Shown here: piece after piece, positions 18,084 to 18,677 of the stretch | How positions within the stretch are numbered: position 1 is the stretch's first letter | Layout of the letters: each line of letters opens with the position of its first letter | Source of the DNA: Lacibacter sediminis | GTDB lineage: Bacteria > Bacteroidota > Bacteroidia > Chitinophagales > Chitinophagaceae | NCBI RefSeq assembly: GCF_014168535.1 | Contig: NZ_CP060007.1 | Span: 1-64,000 of the forward strand | DNA length: 64,000 bases | Direction of reading: 5' to 3' | The notes under the pieces: model-generated | Database searches by the model: none | The model's input: only the letters and a program-made list of their open reading frames with translations | What the model was told of the DNA's origin: nothing | Program-made: the position numbers and the translations under genes

Positions 18084-18677
18084 CACGCTTTGTTTAAATT
18101 TGATTCGAAACTAGGATAAAAAAAGTTAGCTGTTTTGCCCTAGTATATCTTAATAGATACTTATTTATTTAATAATCTATTACTATTATGTATGTGAATT
18201 CGTGGATATCTCCCCTTCAGTTCTTTTTGCAAAGTTAGCGAAGGCTCATTTATTCACATCAATTCCCAAGTCATCCACATTGGGAGATATAGCAGCAGTA
18301 AGGAAACAGTCGCTTTGTTCACAACTGTGGATTCAAAAACGGTTGTACAACTAACATCAGTATTTTTTCTTTTTGTTGTGTTAAACCGGAGGGGATAAAC
18401 TCAGGGTTGTAAACGTAGTTTTTGTAGCAAGGGTCAACCTTTACAGATCTCAACTAACCATTCACGAAGTTATCCCAGTTAAATACGGGCATATCCACAG
18501 CTTTTCAGGTTTATACACAGGGCTGTTGTGAATTCTTTATTTCTGTTTTTGAAACATCCGCCCCTTCTTTTCTAAAACCTTTACCCTGTGCAGATTACGG
18601 GAGTTTTCCACAATTTGTTCAAACCTCTTTTTCCCCCTATTTTTGCCGCTCACTTTTATAACGTACAATATACTATT
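18084..18677. other. candidate chromosomal replication origin (DnaA-box cluster)
   Basis: This 594-base gene-free region lies between divergent nadA and ppiD. It holds two exact TTATNCACA boxes (TTATTCACA 18250-18258, TTATACACA 18511-18519) and two one-mismatch boxes (TCATCCACA 18271-18279, ATATCCACA 18491-18499). Weaker reverse boxes occur at 18193-18201, 18326-18334 and 18527-18535 (TGTGNATTC). An AT-rich stretch at about 18145-18190 could serve as an unwinding element. ATATCTCCC (18206-18214) has an inverted copy GGGAGATAT at 18282-18290. dnaA itself is not in the window. Confidence 0.5.
18614..18645 (+). promoter_or_regulatory. promoter of ppiD
   Basis: TTTG (18614-18617), 20 bases, then TATTTTTG (18638-18645) is an exact match to the Bacteroidota TTTG/TAnnTTTG promoter. 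It excludes the in-frame upstream start at 18588 and supports the ATG at 18678. Confidence 0.7.

Follow-up and report, generated by a model that had tools for sequence, protein, structure and literature searches.

Does the chromosome of Lacibacter sediminis begin its replication in the gap between nadA and a ppiD-like gene, as the initial annotation proposed? The gap (594 bp, positions 18084-18677) lies at 18 kb of a single-contig genome of 5,119,652 bp (5.12 Mb), in the window analysed here, a 64-kb stretch that opens the contig. It separates two divergent genes, whose given names agree with Pfam: on the left, nadA for quinolinate synthase (17070-18083, minus strand; PF02445) and, on the right, a ppiD-like gene for a SurA_N/PPIC peptidyl-prolyl isomerase (18678-20813, plus strand; PF13623/PF13616). 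Genome comparisons indicate that the whole intergenic gap very likely serves as oriC, the origin of chromosome replication, because it combines clustered DnaA boxes with an A+T-rich stretch and a conserved unwinding-type module, lies at the GC-skew switch, is present in a single copy, and is conserved across the family in both sequence and place. As an origin it is of an ordinary type, its location is new, and its unwinding module is a variant in fine structure.

The gap carries six plus-strand DnaA boxes with at most one mismatch (two exact, four with one mismatch). The exact TTATNCACA boxes that the initial annotation reported at 18250 and 18511 are present (TTATTCACA, 18250-18258, conserved in the genus; TTATACACA, 18511-18519), as are those with one mismatch at 18271 and 18491 (TCATCCACA, 18271-18279, conserved in the genus; ATATCCACA, 18491-18499). 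However, the list of one-mismatch boxes was incomplete, as it overlooked TTGTTCACA (18315-18323; TTATACACA or similar in relatives) and TTTTCCACA (18604-18612; invariant in the genus). Eleven additional sites have two mismatches, and nine of them, including the weak box GAATCCACA (18326-18334), are on the minus strand, the strand to which such sites had been assigned. Dinucleotide shuffling of the gap (5,000 replicates) gave at least two exact boxes in 0.06% and six boxes with at most one mismatch in 0.02% (frequency 0.0002), while six on a single strand never occurred (0/5,000).

Box and skew statistics for the genome refer to 2.37 Mb of stretches (46% of 5,119,652 bp). In this sample the gap ranks first for DnaA boxes among 486 intergenic regions of at least 150 bp and, among the 87 regions of 400-800 bp, it alone has at least six; the clustering of intergenic boxes above the rest of the genome that is expected of an oriC is found here, and the exceptional density claimed earlier is unmatched among the sampled regions. 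The whole window contains 99 boxes, with 93 expected, and since it shows no overall excess, the signal is local to the gap. The second-ranked intergenic region, at 4,727,982-4,728,269 (locus L101, approx. 4782-5069), has four boxes in 288 bp, two of them exact, and may be a DnaA-titration or regulatory site. In the gap 3' of ppiD (window 20814-20975), an inverted repeat, TGGGCATAA/TTATGCCCA, accompanies the exact box TTATGCACA; the repeat is probably a terminator hairpin, yet three box-like sites fall within these 162 bp.

The position of the gap on the chromosome was assessed by GC skew, which, over 118 stretches and the window, has mostly positive values between 0 and 2.85 Mb and mostly negative ones from there to 5.1 Mb. 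At four-fold degenerate sites, with genes split by strand, the skew switches at approx. 69 kb, in a flat trough, which places the switch about 50 kb, or 1% of the genome, from the gap; in another species of this genus (G013) it lies 32 kb from the homologous gap. The check by GC skew that the initial annotation had called for thus came out in favour of an origin at this locus, with an agreement of about 50 kb here and of 32 kb in G013. The strand-corrected trough, at 54-77 kb of the genome (window 54000-64000 and locus L010), is 30-60 kb from the gap on the ppiD side in two species. That the strand-corrected minimum is off the gap, and on the ppiD side both here (G000, 50 kb) and in G013 (32 kb), counts against the oriC assignment, and it might be argued that the true origin is at this minimum, 30-60 kb away, the gap being a DnaA-titration or regulatory cluster. 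The displacement of the switch to the same side in both species fits this view; however, the interval from 4.83 Mb to 0.34 Mb, read completely, holds no second comparable intergenic box cluster or box-pair/array module, the offset is as small as 1% of the genome, and in so flat a trough a few strongly skewed genes could shift the minimum. An origin at the skew minimum is the least probable of the explanations considered, and very improbable in itself.

Where the skew turns back, at 2.85 Mb, a dif-like site, TATAATTAATATTATGTTAA, is found at 2,854,277; nearly palindromic and one mismatch from the pattern, it is the best-looking candidate, and three further one-mismatch sites occur elsewhere in the genome. 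A search for parS (GTTNCACGTGNAAC, at most one mismatch) gave zero exact sites and no excess over the control. The dnaA gene, whose domain-IV GGRDHTTV motif is intact, is at 1,213,930, 1.2 Mb from the gap. An exact box, TTATACACA (1,213,030-1,213,038, minus strand), precedes the dnaA domain match by no more than approx. 1 kb, which might reflect dnaA autoregulation. The mnmG gene, correctly named by Pfam, does lie 31 kb from the gap, as had been pointed out in support of the origin, but its value as an argument is small, there being no box cluster near it.

The unwinding-type module, absent from the initial annotation, occupies the nadA-side edge of the gap. Read along the minus strand from 18209 to 18177, it begins with the upstream box ATATCCACG (18201-18209; TTATCCACG/T in several relatives), which overlaps by one base the array-proximal box GAATTCACA (18193-18201) and is followed by a 4-nt spacer, TACA (18189-18192), and by TAATAGTAATAG, a DnaA-trio-like array of the trinucleotides TAA TAG TAA TAG (18177-18188) whose polarity is opposite with respect to the boxes; A+T-rich DNA comes next. 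This stretch (18136-18195, 80% A+T), which lies beside the boxes and is the proposed DNA-unwinding element (DUE), is conserved past the genus, with other genera matching gap bases 53-125, and contains an inverted repeat (18151-18163/18170-18182); both features had been noticed earlier and are hereby located. The basal unwinding system (BUS) has been described as a box pair, a G+C-rich spacer, a trinucleotide array, and A+T-rich DNA, in that order (PMC8287927). In particular, overlapping DUE-proximal boxes with a 4-nt G+C-rich spacer are known from B. subtilis and H. pylori (PMC8235120, PMC8287927), and in H. pylori oriC2 the DUE-proximal boxes are fused or overlapping (PMC8235120). The tandem, overlapping boxes and short spacer of such a system are found here in an 8-bp register with 4 nt between boxes and array, although the spacer in the window itself is TACA, compared with an average of 73% G+C over family gaps.

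In the 2.37 Mb scanned, only one site combines a box pair in 8- or 9-bp register with a 3-5-nt spacer and (TAR)4, and a genome-wide search for the shorter signature CACA-N4-(TAR)4 gave a single match. When 12 genomes of the genus were aligned, all 12 had (TAN)3-TAG, each triplet keeping its T and A unchanged and differing at the third base; the overlapping minus-strand box pair belongs to the most conserved 0.2% of gap stretches of equal length. Gap homologues were found throughout the genus, and fragments are kept in other Chitinophagaceae genera. Upstream of ppiD, the block 18604-18660 (TTTTCCACAATTTGTTCAAAC...TATTTTTGCCGCTCAC) is nearly invariant in the genus and matches other genera in part; in several relatives, its TTTTCCACA box is opposed, 3 bp away, by the reverse box TTATGAACA.

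Beyond the genus, CACA-N4-(TAR)4 was detected in 118 of 197 Chitinophagaceae genomes, mostly in one copy, with approx. 130 matches in the family and approx. 19 for the reversed control; the lack of an exact match in approx. 40% of the genomes counts against the oriC assignment, as does the background level of the pattern outside the family. The spacer, left unspecified in the search, has 73% G+C in the 33 family gaps measured, and 29 of 31 inspected copies adjoin nadA and/or ppiD. Conversely, when divergent nadA-ppiD loci were retrieved by NadA similarity, 26 of 31 had the module complete with both boxes, spacer, and array. Class-wide searches for TAR4 and for YTA4, the published polarity, remained at background level outside Chitinophagaceae and are uninformative for other Bacteroidota. 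One genome (G205, L255) carries two facing modules beside nadA, at 1204-1224 (plus) and 1246-1266 (minus), approx. 40 bp apart, possibly a symmetric version.

A rival view is that the boxes and array act in cis to regulate nadA or ppiD, for example within a divergent promoter controlled by DnaA or another repressor, and that the origin is elsewhere. The array is indeed approx. 20-200 bp upstream of nadA in most inspected copies, and the near-invariant block 18604-18660 looks like a promoter. However, three genomes without nadA (G047, G103, G145) still keep the module beside ppiD, and two others (G048, G146) keep it beside nadA although ppiD is approx. 100 kb away; because the module is retained where one gene is absent or the other has moved, it is the constant element, and it is not the promoter of either gene. 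Moreover, nadA of other Bacteroidota families lacks it (full module at 2 of approx. 47 non-divergent nadA loci, one of these two in Chitinophagaceae), and the module coincides with the skew switch. A purely regulatory role is therefore most unlikely. A promoter/terminator scan gave no signal above chance. A riboswitch as the cause of the conserved gap was ruled out, as an Rfam scan of the window returned no match.

The fine structure of the array differs from that of known origins. There, the strand bearing TTATCCACA continues as 5'-CTA-CTA-TTA-3', and DnaA holds its complement, 3'-GAT-5'; this polarity was derived from H. pylori, where ts1 reads 5'-TCATTCCAT-3' and precedes the 5'-CTA-3' array, and from 5'-tail scaffolds. 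In the present gap, TAA-TAG-TAA-TAG follows on the box strand, (TAR)n rather than the published (YTR)n, and consensus trios read from the box side (3'-[G/A]A[T/A]-5', or 5'-YTR-3' on the box strand) are not found. Among 46 family gaps, three or more TAR triplets adjoin a box in 34, always on the minus strand, whereas the strict published polarity, (YTA)3 or longer, adjoins a box in none, and the looser form [CT]T[AT] is seen on 10 gap-strands compared with 9 in reversed-sequence controls. The triplet farthest from the boxes is TAG in 27 of 33 gaps, and the nearest is TAA in 30 of 33. Read 3' to 5', the array is RAT with GAT first; consensus and gradient agree with the published ones, but their orientation to the boxes is the inverse.

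It is possible, though rather doubtful, that the Chitinophagaceae DnaA-trio array is inverted relative to its loading boxes, so that the TTATCCACA strand also carries the 3'-RAT-5' trios and GAT is concentrated at the box-distal end; in that case, DnaA would either be loaded on the other strand of the DUE or occupy the array starting from the end away from the boxes. Such an orientation would not be expected in nature, because reversing box 6 or boxes 6/7 in B. subtilis stopped origin function (PMC6669920) and reversal of the trio array in H. pylori abolished opening (PMC8235120); the opposite polarity thereby counts against the oriC assignment. If the inverted reading were true, the rule that trio polarity follows the box would not be universal. 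Alternatively, the published geometry may be kept with non-consensus 3'-YAT-5' trios and a spacer of 3. This reading fits the permissive rule of a DnaA box (at most two mismatches) within 16 bp of at least three NAN trios (PMC8287927); the arrangement is seen in the window as ATATCCACG, an 11-nt spacer, and 3'-TAT TAT CAT TAT-5', the complement of ATA ATA GTA ATA, and it is seen in 43 of 46 family gaps (control, 9). The TAR-polarity variant looks new, and the function of the module is a prediction from its sequence.

With the gap as oriC, initiation might proceed as follows. DnaA would occupy the boxes of the plus strand together with the pair on the minus strand and would then move from this pair onto the trinucleotide array; the DNA would melt across 18136-18192, towards nadA, and the helicase would be loaded at the melted DNA, from which two forks would depart, one in each direction.

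Among the papers searched, none links oriC with quinolinate synthase, oriC or DnaA boxes with Chitinophaga, or DnaA-trios with Bacteroidetes/Bacteroidota. The assignment would place the origin of a large soil and freshwater Bacteroidota family, in which dnaA is no guide to it, at a recognisable locus, the nadA/ppiD gap with its CACA-N4-TAR4 signature. Coverage-based estimates of growth rate, origin-based vectors, and the rotation of genome records could all make use of it. The reversed array would also offer a natural experiment on the transfer of DnaA from duplex DNA to a single strand, for which the published model needs one polarity.

The proposed origin shares features with several known systems. 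The BUS of B. subtilis (incC boxes 6/7, GGCC, and DnaA-trios) likewise has two overlapping boxes that face the DUE, an array beside A+T-rich DNA, and more boxes upstream; box pair and array are separated by a 4-nt spacer, which in most relatives with the present module is G+C-rich. In contrast to the TAR array described here, the box strand of the BUS reads CTA/TTA (YTR), and the strand bound is 3'-GAT-5'; moreover, the proposed origin, with its predicted unwinding module, is not beside dnaA. H. pylori oriC2 (ts1-ts2, GC-rich motif, DnaA-trio, AT-rich DNA) has the same module order and a fused or overlapping box pair, but it differs in trio polarity and belongs to a bipartite origin, whereas here a single gap is involved. 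E. coli oriC, which lies between mnmG and mioC with R1 next to the DUE, is also detached from dnaA and has its DUE-proximal box oriented at the DUE; however, the neighbours here are nadA and ppiD, with mnmG 31 kb away, and the E. coli arrangement has neither a TAR array nor GATC clustering in common with the origin proposed for Lacibacter.
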